A stretch of DNA of 64,000 nt. Source: a virus. The stretch spans positions 1-64,000 of the IMG/VR virus record IMGVR_UViG_3300008266_000033; one strand, given 5' to 3'. Every line of letters starts with the position of its first letter. The first letter of the stretch is position 1. This document shows positions 50,254 through 59,872 of this stretch, in pieces. The notes under the pieces are model-generated. The model did no database searches, had not been told where the DNA came from, and worked only from the letters and a program-made list of their open reading frames with translations. A program made the translations under genes and the position numbers.

Positions 50254-50979
50254 TTAACAATATGTTTGCATATGGAGTGTAAGCATACTCATTACTTCTT
50301 GTTTAGCTGTTCTGTTGTGATCAGCAAATACACCACTTACTTCACTTGTAACCATACTAGCACCCCAATGTTTAACACCCCTACAGGAAACACAATTGTG
50401 TGTGCTATGTACTACTACCATTACATTTTCAGTTTCAGCTACTGCTTGAATAGCATTATGAACAGCAACTGTAAGTTGTTCCTGAATAGCACCTCTACGA
50501 GCAAAGTGTTCTACTATACGATTAAGTTTAGATAATCCTACTACTTTACCATCTTCTCCAGGAATATAAGCAATATGTGCTTTACCTAAAATAGCTTGAT
50601 GATGATGTGAACACATACTAACAATTGGAATATCTCGTTCTAATACAATTCCATTATAACCATCACTAGGAAAAGCAGTAATATCTGTAGGTAACTCATA
50701 TCTACCCCTCCATAGATCTTTTACATAAGCTTTAGCTACTCGAGTAGGTGTTTCCATAGAATTAGGATCATTTTCCCAATCAACACCTAATGAGGTTAAA
50801 AACTTACCATAATAAAAAGAAGCATTTTTAATAATTTTTTCTTTTTCTTTTTCATTAAGTGAGCGATGCTCTCCTTTATCTAAAATTTCTTTTAATTGCA
50901 GTGAAATACCATTAGCATAACCTGCTTGAGCCGTTTCTAGATTTTCTACATCAATTACTTGTCTTCGTTTATTTTCCAT
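50254..50979 (-). CDS. folE: GTP cyclohydrolase I
   Basis: The 241-residue protein has VSMCSHHHQAILGKAHIAYI near 127, KVVGLSKLNRIVEHFARRG near 152 and HNCVSCRGVKHWGASMVTSE near 202, which carry the zinc and active-site residues of FolE. It converts GTP to dihydroneopterin triphosphate, the first step of 7-deazaguanine synthesis. It belongs functionally to QueD, QueE, QueC and the DpdA-like gene at 55585-59872. It overlaps the thioredoxin-like gene by 11 bases. Confidence 0.95.
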   Translation of the reverse strand: MENKRRQVIDVENLETAQAGYANGISLQLKEILDKGEHRSLNEKEKEKIIKNASFYYGKFLTSLGVDWENDPNSMETPTRVAKAYVKDLWRGRYELPTDITAFPSDGYNGIVLERDIPIVSMCSHHHQAILGKAHIAYIPGEDGKVVGLSKLNRIVEHFARRGAIQEQLTVAVHNAIQAVAETENVMVVVHSTHNCVSCRGVKHWGASMVTSEVSGVFADHNRTAKQEVMSMLTLHMQTYC

Positions 50980-54227: not shown

Positions 54228-55592
54228 TTAATTCTGATCAGAATAAAGTATAACTGAAGGAAATGGTGTAACTATAATAGGTAATGGGACTGTTCTTGTA
54301 CAACCATTAAATGAAACTAAACTCAATTGGTATGTAGTATTACTTGATGGGGAAACAGTAATACTTTGTGTAGTTTGATTTCCTGGCATCCATAAATAAG
54401 ATTGATAACCATTAGGTGCAGTTAATGTTACAGTTTCTCCTACACATATAGTATCAGGATATGCATCTAAAAATGATTGTGAACATACAGCATCTATATA
54501 AGCATAACCATAGTGTGCACTTTGAGTACAATCTCCTGTAGTAAATTCAGCAGTAACTGCTTGTCCTATATAGTTATCTAAATCTACATTTACTGTACTC
54601 CAAGGTTTATATCTAACACCTGTACATGTAGTTGAGTTAAAAAATCCAGGTAAATTACCTGCTGCAGATACTACAAATTCTGAACATGGAATAACATTAC
54701 CATTTTGATCTCTTAGTAATGCTCTAAAAAAAGGTTGTTCATTAGATGTATGACCAGGATCTTCAAAAACTACAGCATAGCGATAGGTAAAACTATTGTT
54801 GCTTGGAGATACTATAAATGTTTGTGTTAATTGTTCTGCTTGAGAATTAACATTAGCGTCACCTAATCTAACAGAAAATGGTCCTCCTAATGGATCTACT
54901 CTTGGAAAACCACCACATGGATCATTTCCACCTGACATTATAGTATGTCTTCCATTAACTATACCTATTGCTGTTGCATCATAGTTTGGTGTTGGAGCAC
55001 CAATATATGCTCTTGTAGCTAAACCTGTTGTACCAAACCAACCATTAAAATTGTTACTACTAAAACCTATGTTAGTACAACTAGGTTGAGGTATTACTGG
55101 TGTAAACTGTATTCTTAAATCAAATTGAGAGCAGTTAGCAAAATAATTACCCCAAACATAGTTGTCTACTAACACATAGTAAGTTTGACCTGCTTGTAAA
55201 TATTCTACTATTGATGCATTAGCTGTTGATGGATTATATAATGCAAAACCCATACATGCTCCAAATGTTCCTGGACACGCATTAGATAATGTTATTACTG
55301 GATATGCAGTTCCTGTAGCTACTACATCATTTAGTAAGATACTTACATAACCATTTTGTGTAGGAGTGAAACTATATAACCAATCCTGACCTCCATAATA
55401 ATTACCTGTAGCTGTAAATATACAAGGATTAGCTCCTGTATAATCATTTCCGTCTCCACAAGTAGATTGATTATTACCAAAGAATGGTAGAGTTATAGGA
55501 TTAGCAGCTGCTCCAGCGCAAGTATTTGATCCCTGCGCTGAGAGCTTTGAGTAAGCAAATAGTGTAATAAATAGTAAAAGATACTTAAACAT
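54228..55592 (-). CDS. Large secreted Bacteroidota-type surface protein
   Basis: The 454-residue precursor has a signal peptide (MFKYLLLFITLFAYSKLSAQ) and an N-terminal domain with CAGAAANPITLPFFG and GGQDWLYSFTPTQNGYVSI. A jelly-roll-like middle follows (near 175-375), then an Ig-like end with DTICVGETVTLTAPNG and FNGCTRTVPLPIIV. The last residues (PFPSVILYSDQN) parallel the end of the gene downstream. No sorting domain is present here. Its start overlaps the queE fragment by eight bases. Role in infection unknown. Confidence 0.82.
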   Translation of the reverse strand: MFKYLLLFITLFAYSKLSAQGSNTCAGAAANPITLPFFGNNQSTCGDGNDYTGANPCIFTATGNYYGGQDWLYSFTPTQNGYVSILLNDVVATGTAYPVITLSNACPGTFGACMGFALYNPSTANASIVEYLQAGQTYYVLVDNYVWGNYFANCSQFDLRIQFTPVIPQPSCTNIGFSSNNFNGWFGTTGLATRAYIGAPTPNYDATAIGIVNGRHTIMSGGNDPCGGFPRVDPLGGPFSVRLGDANVNSQAEQLTQTFIVSPSNNSFTYRYAVVFEDPGHTSNEQPFFRALLRDQNGNVIPCSEFVVSAAGNLPGFFNSTTCTGVRYKPWSTVNVDLDNYIGQAVTAEFTTGDCTQSAHYGYAYIDAVCSQSFLDAYPDTICVGETVTLTAPNGYQSYLWMPGNQTTQSITVSPSSNTTYQLSLVSFNGCTRTVPLPIIVTPFPSVILYSDQN

Positions 55593-56303
55593 TTAATGTC
55601 TTATCCCAAGCTGAGATATGTAATCTTGTTAATCCTCTAAATTTATATTTTTTAGCCATCTCCAATGTAAACTGAGTACGCTCATGGAAATCTGTTTGAC
55701 TATCTAAACCAGGCATGCAAACTACATTTTTAAGTGGAATATTAAATGGCTCAATAAAGTCACGGAATATTTCCTTAACATCATCTTCAGTTGAAATAAC
55801 GAACTTAAATTGATAGTTTGAGTGTTCCATGATGCGTTTGATAGCATCAGGATTGATACGTTGTTTTTCAGCTAGACCTGAGTTGGATAGTTTAGGTGAG
55901 CAGTTGATTTGATGGCTTCTTGGTGTCCTTTAATTGTAGGTTCACCACCAGTCCAAATAATGTGGATAGTACCATTTTTAACATCCTCATAAATGCCTTG
56001 TTCTTTCCATTGATCGATTAGATATTGGAAGTCTTTTTCTTCACCTCTCCATAACCATTGAGATGTACTATCGCAGGTCCATGTGGCTTTACCTTCTAGC
56101 TCTAAATCACCTTTGAATATCTCCCCATCTTCTAATGATTTATCTTTCATTAGTTGATTGGCAAACTTACGAGACATACCGCAGGTTAAGTTACAGATTC
56201 CTAAGCGAACAAAGTATGAAGGAATACCCGTAGATATTCCCTCACCTTGTACACTATAAAAGTCTGAGCTTATTAATAGTTTATTTGGATTAATTGCGCT
56301 CAT
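55585..56303 (-). pseudogene. queE: QueE (7-carboxy-7-deazaguanine synthase), split by frameshift and deletion
   Basis: The first frame (55872-56303, 143 codons) has SDFYSVQGEGISTGIPSYFV and CNLTC near 37-41, a second Cys site TCDST near 77 and IIWTGGEPTIKGHQEAI near 115. It then runs into a stop. The second frame (to 55585, from about 55908) continues with INCSPKLSNSGLAEKQRINP and the normal QueE C-terminus LTRLHISAWDKTLNV. About 40 codons expected between GHQEAI and INCSPK, including the ETNG motif, are missing. As read the gene cannot give an active radical-SAM enzyme; a true deletion or an assembly error are both possible. Confidence 0.8.
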
Positions 56304-56995
56304 TAGAATACTAATTCAGGAGTTACTGTTTTTGGTTTAAAGTATGATTCTAAAAAACTTTTAGGGTAAAGTAAAACTTGACCTTTATATGTTTTAGTTT
56401 GAACTTCACGTACATTTATAGATACTTTAAGTTTAGTTGCTACTTCAGCAACCTTTTTACCTAGTTCACTACCTGCAGGACGTCCTAAATAATCATACAG
56501 TGATAACATTTCTTCTTTTTTTGTTGTATTTTGAGTTTCCATATAACTTGCTGAGTTTCTATCGTGTTCGTAAACTTCTACTTTTATGGCTCGTACACGG
56601 CCTTTTGTTTCTTCTTTTAAAAATCTATTAATTTGTCTATAAAGATATTCTGCAAAACGTTCACATCCTGTAGCAGGAAGTACTCGTAATTGAATAATAC
56701 CATCTTTATCCATTTGCACAAATTTATCTAGATATGGATCATCTGATGCTACAATTGTGGTATGATCAAGTAGATATGTAAAGAAATCTTTAGGTGATTT
56801 ACCTCCAATTTTATGTTTAGCACGCTTCATACCTCCAAAATCCCATACCCAGTTACGTTCATCTAGATCTCCTTCGAACCATACTCTAAAAGATACAGCA
56901 TATCCATGAAGATATTTACAATGAGTACTATCTGCTTTCCATTGACGAAAACATGTACTGAATCCATCAAATAATTTGGTTGATTGGAATTTCAT
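56303..56995 (-). CDS. queD: QueD, 6-carboxytetrahydropterin synthase, with C-terminal extension
   Basis: Residues 1-150 carry the QueD fold: FSTCFRQWKADSTHCKYLHG with the zinc His and catalytic Cys region, WVWDFGGMKRAK near 49, LLDHTTIV near 75 and VEVYEHDRNSA near 139. It makes 6-carboxytetrahydropterin from the FolE product. At 230 residues it is about 80 longer than usual. The extra C-terminus (LGKKVAEVATKLKVSINVRE; GQVLLYPKSFLESYF) is unknown and may be specific to phages. It overlaps queE by one base. Confidence 0.9.
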   Translation of the reverse strand: MKFQSTKLFDGFSTCFRQWKADSTHCKYLHGYAVSFRVWFEGDLDERNWVWDFGGMKRAKHKIGGKSPKDFFTYLLDHTTIVASDDPYLDKFVQMDKDGIIQLRVLPATGCERFAEYLYRQINRFLKEETKGRVRAIKVEVYEHDRNSASYMETQNTTKKEEMLSLYDYLGRPAGSELGKKVAEVATKLKVSINVREVQTKTYKGQVLLYPKSFLESYFKPKTVTPELVF

Positions 56996-57539: not shown

Positions 57540-57995
57540 TTAGTTTTTTATTTTTAAATAATCTTCTATGGTAATTTTAGTATTTCTTTCCAAATAATGA
57601 AATTCTCTATGACAATTTGAGCAGAGAGGAATACATTTTTCAATTTCTTTAAAAGTATCTTCTATAGATTTATATTGCCAAGCATTACCTATTGCTATAG
57701 ATTTGGTGGTAGGATCAATATGATGAAAATCTAAAAGATAATATCTAGTTTCTTTACATTTAGAACAGCATAATGTTTGTTTATATTCATTTACTGTTTC
57801 TTTATATTTTCGTTTAAATTCTTTTTGATATTCTCTCCATTGATCCTTATTCTTATTATAATTAGCTTTAGTAGTTTCTCTTACACATGCTTTACAATAA
57901 TATTCCCACCCATCTTTTTTACTTTTTCTATGATGCCAAAATTCTTCAGTTAATGGTTTATCACTATTACACTTAGTACAATGTTTTATCTCCAT
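57540..57995 (-). CDS. HNH endonuclease
   Basis: I choose the start at 57995 (MEIKHCTKCNSDKPL), ten bases after the late-type element; the longer start at 58004 is possible. CTKC and CKAC near the N-terminus form one zinc knuckle. YLLDFHHIDPTTK near 100 and CIPLCSNCHREFHY near 127 form the HNH site. It looks like a stand-alone homing endonuclease. Confidence 0.88.
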   Translation of the reverse strand: MEIKHCTKCNSDKPLTEEFWHHRKSKKDGWEYYCKACVRETTKANYNKNKDQWREYQKEFKRKYKETVNEYKQTLCCSKCKETRYYLLDFHHIDPTTKSIAIGNAWQYKSIEDTFKEIEKCIPLCSNCHREFHYLERNTKITIEDYLKIKN

Positions 57996-58004
57996 AATTG
58001 TCAT

Positions 58005-58047: not shown

Positions 58048-58857
58048 CTATTTATTTTTCCATTTTTCTAAAATACTTTTAACATAAGTTTTAACAACAT
58101 CCCAACTTACTTCACCATTTTCATCTTCATATTGAATAGGGTCAGGATGACCTAGTTGAATAAATGCTTCGATACGTTCTACTGAAGATGCTGATTTATA
58201 GTCACTATTACCTGATGGGTATGGTTTATAACTTGTGTTAGTACGCCGGTATATTTCATTAAAATCTAATTCCAATTCTTGACATATTTCATACCCAGCT
58301 TCTAAGATAGAAGCTTTATCAATAAGTAAATAAGGAGTATAATAATTTACTTTCTCAGAACCCCAATTACCTAATTTAAATGCTTCTAAATCTGCATCTC
58401 TAAATTCAGGTCTACAGTCGGGGTAAACACTTTCGTCTCCTTTATGTATTCCCATTGCAACATCTACAAAGCAATTATGTTTTTCAGCAATAGATAAAGC
58501 AATAGCTTGAGTAATTGAACTAAAAATTTTATTGCGATTAGGTACTACTGTTGCTTTCATATTATCATCAGCATAGTGACCTTCAGGTACTTCATCACCT
58601 CCAGTTACTAATGTTGAATTTAATAATTGTGATAAACCATCTAGTTTAATTACTTGATATGTAATATCATTTTCAAAACCTTGAGATGTCAAATAATCTA
58701 TTAAAGATTGAGCTCGTTCTAACTCAACTTTATGTTTTTGACCATAGTCAAATGATACACACGTTACTTGATAATCATAATTTAATAGATGTAGCAATAA
58801 AGTGCTACTATCCATTCCACCTGAGAGTGATAGTACTGCTTGTTTCTTCATAGTCAT
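58048..58857 (-). CDS. queC: QueC, 7-cyano-7-deazaguanine synthase, zinc ligands lost
   Basis: The 269-residue protein has LSLSGGMDSSTLLL near 9, VSFDYGQKHKVE near 33, ATVVPNRNKIFSS near 104 and GIHKGDESVYPDCRPEF near 136. These identify QueC, which makes preQ0 from 7-carboxy-deazaguanine. The C-terminal block where the bacterial enzyme has four zinc Cys reads TSYKPYPSGNSDYKSASSVE, with none of them. The fold may be kept without zinc, or activity changed. It overlaps the upstream gene by four bases. Confidence 0.9.
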   Translation of the reverse strand: MTMKKQAVLSLSGGMDSSTLLLHLLNYDYQVTCVSFDYGQKHKVELERAQSLIDYLTSQGFENDITYQVIKLDGLSQLLNSTLVTGGDEVPEGHYADDNMKATVVPNRNKIFSSITQAIALSIAEKHNCFVDVAMGIHKGDESVYPDCRPEFRDADLEAFKLGNWGSEKVNYYTPYLLIDKASILEAGYEICQELELDFNEIYRRTNTSYKPYPSGNSDYKSASSVERIEAFIQLGHPDPIQYEDENGEVSWDVVKTYVKSILEKWKNK

Positions 58858-59048
58858 TGTTTAATCAATTTATATTCATCAAGATACGATTTTTTTGCAA
58901 AGAATCCAAGATTAATTAAATCTTCCTGTGTAATAAAATCTCTATTATCCCATATTGTTTTTAGTATCTCAGCCAATTCAGTGTCATAAGGACGATTAAA
59001 TTCTGCTCGGGCTTTATTTCCTAAATAAATTGTTTTAACAGTATGCAT
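58854..59048 (-). CDS. Hypothetical 64-residue protein
   Basis: A small helical protein (LAEILKTIWDNRDFITQEDL) between queC and the DpdA-like gene, sharing overlaps with both. Not recognised; its position suggests a role in the deazaguanine pathway. Confidence 0.55.
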   Translation of the reverse strand: MHTVKTIYLGNKARAEFNRPYDTELAEILKTIWDNRDFITQEDLINLGFFAKKSYLDEYKLIKQ

Positions 59049-59872
59049 TATAAGTTATTTAAGGTTTTAAAATAGAGTACATTTTGGTTTAAAAGATCAA
59101 GATTAATTAGAGATAAATCTATTTCCATAACATCATCAATTCTAGTTACTGGTTTAGTTTCTAATCCAAATTTAGTATATTCTAGTCCTTCAATTGAAGC
59201 CATGATAGGATTAGAAGTATCGATAGTACTAATAATATTTCTAATTTCTTTTTCATAAAACGAAAATTCTTGAGGTAATTGACATCCTAATAAATGAATA
59301 TTATCGTGTTCATCTAAAAATCCTAATTCAAATAACCAAGTTATAAATTCAATCCTTCCTAACATAGTTCTAACATGAGTATTTCTTTCACTATGAGGAG
59401 TACTATAATTAACCATATCTTTATACCAAGAAGCACCATAAGAGAAAGCAATCTTTTTGTATCCTAAATGGTTTTTATAAATAGAAAAACACTCTAATGC
59501 TTCTTCTTTACTATTACCTTGTACTACAGGAATAAAAACTGTATCAGGAAATTGTTCTTGATATTGAGACCAAGCTTTAGCTGATACTAATGATTGATTT
59601 TTATCTTGCCAGTAATCTGGGATAAAGAATTCTTGTGGTTTTAATTCTTCTAGCCAATATAATAATCGGTCTTTTGAATAGGGAGTTCCTAACTCGTGTA
59701 GTGAATTATCCATCATAATATGAATACCTTCATCTCTACATTTCAGAAAAAAATTTTTATATTCCTCATACTTATCCATTAAGTGAGGTAAGCAATATTG
59801 ATAATCGTTGTATTGTCTGCTATGTTCTAGCAAACACAGGGGTACTTCATGTGATGATTTAATTTTCTTCAT
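59048..59872 (-). CDS. DpdA-like tRNA-guanine-transglycosylase paralogue
   Basis: The 274-residue protein has IHIMMDNSLHELGTPYSKDR near 50, FFIPDYW, VFIPVVQGNSKEEALECF near 121 and IHLLGCQLPQEFSFY near 207. This matches my memory of phage DpdA proteins of the TGT family, which exchange guanine in DNA for a 7-deazaguanine base. The Asp in MMDNS and the glycine in LLGC fit the TGT substrate pocket. With FolE, QueD, QueE and QueC it completes a preQ0-DNA pathway. RNA as the substrate is less likely given the synteny. Confidence 0.75.
   Translation of the reverse strand: MKKIKSSHEVPLCLLEHSRQYNDYQYCLPHLMDKYEEYKNFFLKCRDEGIHIMMDNSLHELGTPYSKDRLLYWLEELKPQEFFIPDYWQDKNQSLVSAKAWSQYQEQFPDTVFIPVVQGNSKEEALECFSIYKNHLGYKKIAFSYGASWYKDMVNYSTPHSERNTHVRTMLGRIEFITWLFELGFLDEHDNIHLLGCQLPQEFSFYEKEIRNIISTIDTSNPIMASIEGLEYTKFGLETKPVTRIDDVMEIDLSLINLDLLNQNVLYFKTLNNL

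Follow-up and report, generated by a model that had tools for sequence, protein, structure and literature searches.

A QueC-family protein without the four zinc cysteines in a phage genome, and its place in a putative zinc-free branch common to phages and cells

Can a QueC-family protein that lacks all four zinc-binding cysteines still be a working enzyme, and is such a form peculiar to phages? This question is raised by one gene in the window, a stretch of 64,000 nucleotides that makes up the first 64 kb of the IMG/VR virus record IMGVR_UViG_3300008266_000033 (128,411 bases). Two hallmarks of QueC, the SGGxDS ATP loop and the zinc motif C(x)8CxxCxxC, are named in parts of Libby et al. 2026 (PMC13329287), which also describe Y189 of E. 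coli QueC, located in the Cys4-zinc region, as essential. Absence of the zinc motif is stated there for the LarE and GMP synthase clusters, in which function has changed too (PMC13329287, in part). A literature search by title and start of abstract, with supplements and subscription papers outside its scope, returned no paper on zinc-free QueC.

The gene lies on the minus strand at 58048-58857, starts with ATG and encodes 269 amino acids. Its product matches the Pfam QueC domain (PF06508) over residues 6-234 with 130.5 bits, above the gathering cut-off of 22, and the 'QueC-like' family PHROG 1550 with 154 bits; against the NCBIfam QueC equivalog TIGR00364 it scores 127.5 bits, below the cut-off of 150.3. 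Compared with the QueC motifs as defined in parts of Libby et al. 2026 (PMC13329287), the protein carries SGGxDS at residues 12-17, YxQxHxxE as Y38-G-Q40-K-H42-K-V-E45, VPxRN as V105-P-N-R-N109 and YPDC as Y145-P-D-C148. The zinc motif C(x)8CxxCxxC is absent: position-by-position alignment with cysteine-bearing QueCs places Ser209, Asp219, Ser222 and Ser225 in the four Cys columns. The former zinc block spans residues 206-228, TNTSYKPYPSGNSDYKSASSVER, which a hand count puts at 58174-58242 (minus strand). The tyrosine after the first zinc Cys position is kept as Y210 (the equivalent of E. coli Y189), as it is in 192 of 192 aligned rows. The initial annotation, which quoted residues 208-227, had held that all four zinc cysteines were gone from the block and that the remaining active-site motifs were intact, and it was right on both points.

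Four other cysteines remain in the phage protein, at positions 33, 129, 148 and 192, and the YPDC cysteine persists in 40 of 41 Ser-Asp-Ser-Ser rows, in 40 of 40 other zinc-free rows of the same lineage (lineage 1; both zinc-free sets clustered below 80% identity) and in 20 of 21 zinc-bearing rows; the absence of the zinc cysteines is therefore not a general shortage of cysteine. The alignment does not place the cysteines elsewhere, and no relocated Cys/His metal site is found in the sequence: the only columns that gain Cys or His are those of residues 94, 142 and 192, which are unclustered along the chain, residue 142 being Glu in the window protein. A cysteine-bearing relative occurs in a Pseudomonadota MAG, whose protein (L142) is 50% identical to the phage QueC and has all four cysteines in a 23-residue block, TLTCYKPNSQGQSCGRCGSCNER; the blocks are of equal length, so the two match without a gap.

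The substitution is widespread among viral relatives. A scan of IMG/VR with the phage QueC gave 14 loci, six with Ser-Asp-Ser-Ser, four with four cysteines and four outside the alignment. A profile built from eight zinc-free rows, with search patterns outside the zinc block, gave at least 80 further viral loci, and all 80 of those listed have Ser-Asp-Ser-Ser. Since the viral and cellular profile scans list the best matches to a zinc-free profile, such counts are not population frequencies. After clustering at 80% identity, with rows picked by locus and not by state, 33 of 33 lineage-1 viral rows among the matches listed show Ser-Asp-Ser-Ser; Flavobacterium phage immuto, an isolate, carries it too. 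Across 234 viral pairs with an estimate (of 236; 80-97% identical, overlapping and not independent), dN/dS has a median of 0.121 and a maximum of 0.316. In the aligned zinc-block stretch, which takes in a variable loop, the sums over pairs are 1318 nonsynonymous and 2549 synonymous differences; tight conservation is therefore confined to parts of the stretch.

The cysteines are present or absent as a set. Among 192 QueC rows, 21 have four cysteines, 171 have none and none has one to three; these rows leave out L010 and L011 (frame of 8 aa from the match start), L014, L015 and L182 (below 200 aa) and L117 (a run of unknown bases), and they count both L002 and L060, which are one contig. The Cys block is present in L014 and L015. 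Among 75 loci sampled later, one protein has a single cysteine: L221, a QueC from the class of the Poseidoniales, retains only the first zinc Cys (TNTCYNPDKEGRSSGKSGADIER) and is the sole partial state seen. Of the 171 zero-Cys rows, 168 match every one of the patterns SGG.DS, [YF].Q.H..E, VP.RN and Y.DC, against 13 of 21 zinc-bearing rows, so the zinc-free form is if anything nearer the consensus; the three exceptions are L101 (YPNC), L110 (YPDT) and L205, which carries unknown residues.

Cells carry the zinc-free form as well. A scan of bacterial and archaeal genomes gave at least 80 loci; among the 78 aligned of those listed, 77 have no cysteine at the four columns and L142 has all four. 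By record title, the listed sources are Poseidoniales and related archaea, Pirellulaceae and other planctomycetes, Marinimicrobia, one verrucomicrobial MAG, and Cysteiniphilum, Facilibium and two Thiotrichales bacteria, the last four being termed the Cysteiniphilum group because all belong to one order. Because their genomes contain a DpdA-like match, at least four cellular loci (L104-L107) are likely to be phage contigs that were sorted into MAGs. The Cysteiniphilum group carries the phage form, Ser-Asp-Ser-Ser, and a sister form, mostly Ser-x-Ser/Thr-Asp, is the sole strong QueC match in the sampled Poseidoniales-type archaea and planctomycetes. The acid thus stands second in the phage form and fourth in most cellular forms, Asp being at the fourth position in 40 of 41 other cellular rows (L114-L183, 80% clustering, among the matches listed), with L142 as the exception.

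Thirty genomes were sampled for the wider pathway. No PF06508 match other than the zinc-free protein exceeds 100 bits in any of the nine Poseidoniales-type (G021-G028, G041), eight planctomycete (G029, G030, G034-G038, G040) and five Cysteiniphilum-group genomes (G016-G020), the remaining matches there staying below 30 bits; many of the sampled cellular genomes are MAGs of unstated completeness. All nine Poseidoniales-type and all five Cysteiniphilum-group genomes have a QueD-family (PTPS) gene no more than about 1.5 kb from the zinc-free gene; none of the eight planctomycetes does. TGT is present in 8 of 9, 7 of 8 and 5 of 5 Poseidoniales-type, planctomycete and Cysteiniphilum-group genomes, respectively, the Poseidoniales-type TGT in open frames of 709-772 aa, a length expected for the archaeal enzyme. 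QueF scores above its cut-off in all eight planctomycete and all five Cysteiniphilum-group genomes and in no Poseidoniales-type genome. At nine cellular loci, with ORFs judged by eye, the gene order is folE-queE-queC-queD in Poseidoniales L119 and L131, queF-queC-queE in L140 and queD-queC in L138; queC is divergent from queD-queE in L108, L110 and L112, and no pathway neighbours were recognised by eye at the planctomycete locus L135 or at L142. In 30 archaeal loci (including L114, L119, L131 and L137), zinc-free QueC is fused C-terminally to an apparent MsrB-type methionine sulfoxide reductase domain, a by-eye call from Cys motifs in four loci, with the count of 30 resting on a YCIN pattern.

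Broader taxon scans show how far the form extends. Among 33 genomes from the order of Cysteiniphilum, 15 give a match, and 13 of these 15 QueCs are zinc-free; five of these genomes and L236 repeat genomes already counted. In the class of the Poseidoniales, 42 of 60 genomes have a match, and the best 30 comprise 28 without cysteines, the canonical L220 and the one-cysteine L221. In Planctomycetota, 68 of 79 genomes have a match and the best 30 of 69 matches all have four cysteines, so zinc-free QueC is not general there. A search of 229 genomes of the class of L142 at E 1e-40 for similar four-Cys relatives returned, besides L142, only G228, which is zinc-free and belongs to the order of Cysteiniphilum, and G179, which has four cysteines. 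The zinc-free branch is common to phages and cells and wider than first proposed: the suggestion of a phage-specific subgroup does not hold, the clade being the sole strong QueC match in the sampled Poseidoniales-type archaea, planctomycetes and Cysteiniphilum-group bacteria.

Built without the zinc block, a tree of 66 sequences unites the lineage-1 zinc-free rows and L142 in one clade with support 100/100. The free tree puts the cysteine-bearing L142 inside this clade with weak support (88/65), and the AU test does not reject a single loss in lineage 1 with L142 outside (p = 0.496). A single origin of all zinc-free forms is rejected (AU test, p = 0.0015), and the trees hence indicate that zinc was lost at least twice in QueC. 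A conserved Lys-to-Tyr gap of 28 residues is found in 168 of 168 lineage-1 rows and in L142; in the other 20 zinc-bearing rows it is 20 (16 rows) or 23 residues (four rows). If L142 is the sister, the longer segment arose before zinc was lost and may have had an enabling role.

The second zinc-free group stands near E. coli QueC and is represented in the tree by RHEph06, PaP007 and R5C (support 100/98). Nine of ten representatives examined, these three and six of seven further ones, have no zinc cysteines; the zinc-free members recognised are RHEph06, PaP007, R5C, Iggy, Me-ZS1, MMDA13, 83AMN, ART and HD01, three of these nine members being placed by the tree. Vibrio phage GR7B keeps all four cysteines; in its record (MT366760.1, 100500-102090, L216) two adjoining genes are annotated 7-cyano-7-deazaguanine synthase. 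Like the window QueC, lineage 2 has no zinc cysteines and keeps the tyrosine, and most of its records have neighbours annotated queD and/or queE, Iggy also folE and DpdA. It differs in its separate origin, in a block that reads like HTAYDG-YPPTG-DHA and in the DpdA of Iggy, which by eye has another look. In parts of one report, Iggyvirus AA17 has a folE/queD/queE/queC/dpdA cluster and DNA that resists 8 of 16 restriction enzymes, Pbunavirus AA20 resisting ten in the same test (PMC11945000). The resistance of AA17, a presumed lineage-2 member, fits a working pathway without proving it.

The neighbours of the phage gene point to a 7-deazaguanine pathway, all on the minus strand. A folE-like GTP cyclohydrolase I gene lies at 50254-50979 (PF01227 match at 50284-50805, 158.9 bits), and FolE is found in 15 of 16 records searched. 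A queD-like gene (PTPS) of the FRQW type occupies 56303-56995; this type accounts for 58 of 72 viral QueD ORFs and occurs in the Cysteiniphilum group. In the window QueD, the position of E. coli H33 is taken by Tyr, and the alignment does not fix that of H16 with certainty; we take E. coli H16 and H33 to be zinc histidines. The queE-like gene is split into an N-terminal part whose frame stops early (55872-56303) and a C-terminal part in another frame (55585-55830); at 55585-56303 the middle segment found in relatives such as L002, L041 and L059 is missing. This gap is either a real deletion or an assembly fault, and with queE broken the pathway may not run in this one assembly, or the assembly is wrong. 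In some phage QueEs (window 55872-56303; L002, L041, L043, L059, L085, L097), about 35 additional residues stand between the second and the third radical-SAM Cys; seven ORFs with a TWTCDS pattern were counted, and L002 and L060 are one contig. An HNH endonuclease-like gene (57540-58004, minus strand) lies directly downstream of queC.

The gene at 59048-59872 (minus strand, 274 aa) belongs to phrog_19058, labelled 'function unknown', and is predicted from its model to encode a DpdA-like DNA guanine transglycosylase; homologues in immuto phages carry that annotation. The model (pLDDT 96.1) has the TGT TIM-barrel fold, with DpdA 7ui4 as best match (Z 17.2, 232 residues, rmsd 3.1) and TGTs at Z 16-17. 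It is distant from the DpdA/TGT family in sequence: identity is 15% to 7ui4 and 11-13% to TGT rows, no Pfam family, TGT PF01702 included, matches the protein at E 0.001, and CxCxxC, presumably the TGT zinc motif, is absent in 50 of 50 members of the DpdA-like family. The three best Foldseek matches of the model among viral structures are unnamed phage proteins. A DpdA-like match occurs in 7 of 8 lineage-1 records, the window's among them; only L003, a record of 18 kb, lacks one. It is absent from all five other QueC records, four of which have a four-Cys QueC, the fifth being L010. In the flanks of viral loci it appears in 57 of 87, many flanks being cut and L002 and L060 being one contig. The best GenBank phage matches are Campylobacter phages of the CP220 group, at 38-39% identity, and a CP220 hypothetical protein (FN667788.1, 54684-55448) is homologous to the window's DpdA-like family at 38%. 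A later paper may already name this CP220 protein. Campylobacter phages are placed in a group without DpdA in parts of Hutinet et al. 2019. It had been asked whether loss of the cysteines tracks DpdA type; this link fails, as CP220, whose DpdA-like protein is of the window's family, has a QueC with all four cysteines, and the DpdA of Iggy, from the second zinc-free lineage, looks different by eye.

Taken together, the product of the gene is probably a functional QueC-type enzyme that has given up its structural zinc. We infer its activity, the absence of metal, the stabilisation of the block and the exact phage product from comparison and gene context. As in canonical QueC, ATP would be bound by SGGxDS, and 7-carboxy-7-deazaguanine (CDG) would be stacked and read by the Tyr and Asp of YPDC. 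The carboxylate would be activated with ATP and take up ammonia to give the amide (ADG), which a second ATP-dependent round would convert to preQ0. The block keeps its place and Y210, with three Ser and one Asp for the four Cys, and Ser/Asp hydrogen bonds, together with packing of the eight-residue-longer segment, could stand in for zinc. In the phage, FolE, QueD, QueE and QueC would feed the DpdA-like enzyme, which may exchange DNA guanines for a 7-deazaguanine and shield the DNA from host nucleases. For the zinc-free clade as a whole, a working CDG-to-preQ0 enzyme without zinc is most likely and the simplest reading, since queD and other pathway genes stand beside zinc-free queC in archaea and the Cysteiniphilum group. 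Against a working enzyme stand the missed NCBIfam QueC cut-off, the planctomycete copies without an adjoining QueD and the broken queE of this record.

A changed product had also been proposed, and for the clade overall it is not favoured: most cellular genomes carry TGT, the bacterial ones also QueF, and both use preQ0 or its product, though they could run on imported precursors. For the phage itself, the sequence evidence appears to fit ADG as well as preQ0. In one such scheme the zinc-free phage QueC would stop at ADG and the DpdA-like enzyme would insert ADG into DNA. The affinity of that enzyme to the CP220 group, its best-scoring partners among GenBank phage records (38-39%), is of interest here, Campylobacter phages being described as carrying dADG in parts of PMC6884629, which cites Crippen et al. 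However, CP220 QueC has four cysteines, so ADG in DNA needs no loss of them; the CDG-recognition residues, Tyr and Asp of YPDC, are unchanged in the window protein, and cellular zinc-free forms occur with QueF and TGT. We consider this scheme unlikely.

The Ser/Asp set might instead bind another ion, such as Mg, Ca or K. Three hydroxyls and one carboxylate do lie in a tight block, and Asp is found at the second or fourth position in 168 of 168 lineage-1 zinc-free rows, but the acid changes place between phages and most cellular forms, which is easier to reconcile with a hydrogen-bond network than with a metal site of fixed geometry, and the proposal seems very improbable. Still smaller is the chance of a protein-modifying enzyme like Cap9 or QatC that makes no base: Cap9 heads the structural matches, with a lead over QueC that lies within noise (Z 19.2 versus 18.8), but Cap9 and QatC keep Cys zinc motifs in the descriptions given in parts of PMC13329287 and PMC13279940, phage queC has folE, queD, queE and dpdA as neighbours, and the PADLOC QueC profile reaches only 47 bits, with its best stretch at residues 3-85. 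Decay or a sequencing artefact in one phage, which the broken queE of the same record might suggest, has next to no probability left: it is refuted by the relatives with the same substitution, 80 of 80 viral loci among the matches listed and the isolated phage immuto, and dN/dS is low. The initial annotation had preferred an evolved zinc-free form over decay, and these loci, the median dN/dS of 0.121 and the all-or-none state of the 192 rows uphold it. The reading as a working zinc-free QueC is accordingly retained as probable.

A wider proposal is tentative, and we give it somewhat less than an even chance. Zinc in QueC may be a dispensable scaffold outside the chemistry, with a metal-free polar block taking its place on at least two occasions, one of them in the lineage common to marine phages, Poseidoniales, planctomycetes and the Cysteiniphilum group. 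The entire phage pathway would have shifted to zinc economy, with QueC lacking Cys4, QueD having at least one canonical zinc His changed, DpdA lacking CxCxxC and only FolE looking unchanged. Zinc has known roles in QueD, TGT and FolE, and loss of a zinc site with function kept has precedents among zinc-economy paralogues. In one review, seen in part, queC is listed in the Neisseria meningitidis Zur regulon (PMC6103462). The zinc hallmark of QueC misses likely members, given a large clade that keeps the other catalytic residues without the zinc ligands. This clade offers a natural experiment on the role of QueC zinc, with L142 as a four-Cys relative on a similar backbone for a clean comparison, and it predicts preQ0 synthesis without zinc, perhaps useful in zinc-poor seawater.

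Among known systems, the closest folds are those of Cap9 and QueC. The AlphaFold2 model of the phage protein (84-row alignment) has pLDDT 92.9, with 91-94 in the former zinc block; it was modelled without zinc, and such a model says little about a metal-free state. It matches Cap9 9nto with Z 19.2 over 178 residues and B. subtilis QueC 3bl5 with Z 18.8 over 190 residues; the matches span residues 4-239, a range that does not prove that zinc-block residues align. Cap9 (type IV CBASS) and QatC (Qat) share the fold of the phage QueC and keep the zinc cysteines, and modification of a partner protein is reported or proposed for both in parts of PMC13329287 and PMC13279940. Cap9 is defined by CE(x)6CxxCxxCxD and about 185 residues (PMC13329287, in part); the phage protein has no such cysteines and 269 residues. 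In QatC the CDG-recognition Tyr and Asp, a role reported for those residues of YPDC in parts of PMC13279940, are replaced by two Thr and the zinc motif is C(x)19CGxCxxRR (PMC13329287, PMC13279940, in part), whereas the phage protein has YPDC and no Cys block. Canonical QueC (B. subtilis 3BL5, E. carotovora 2PG3) has the same fold, at 28% identity to 3bl5, and shares SGGxDS, YxQxHxxE, VPxRN, YPDC, the Tyr after the first Cys and the conserved Lys, as well as folE, queD and queE as neighbours; the phage protein differs in having no zinc Cys, eight more residues before the block than most, about 35 residues beyond the Pfam match and a score below the TIGR00364 cut-off. The QueC of phage immuto (NC_055915) is 57.6% identical and has the same Ser-Asp-Ser-Ser block, with a DpdA-like gene in the same genome; it differs in a longer loop within the block and in the distance of about 15 kb between its dpdA-like gene and queC.
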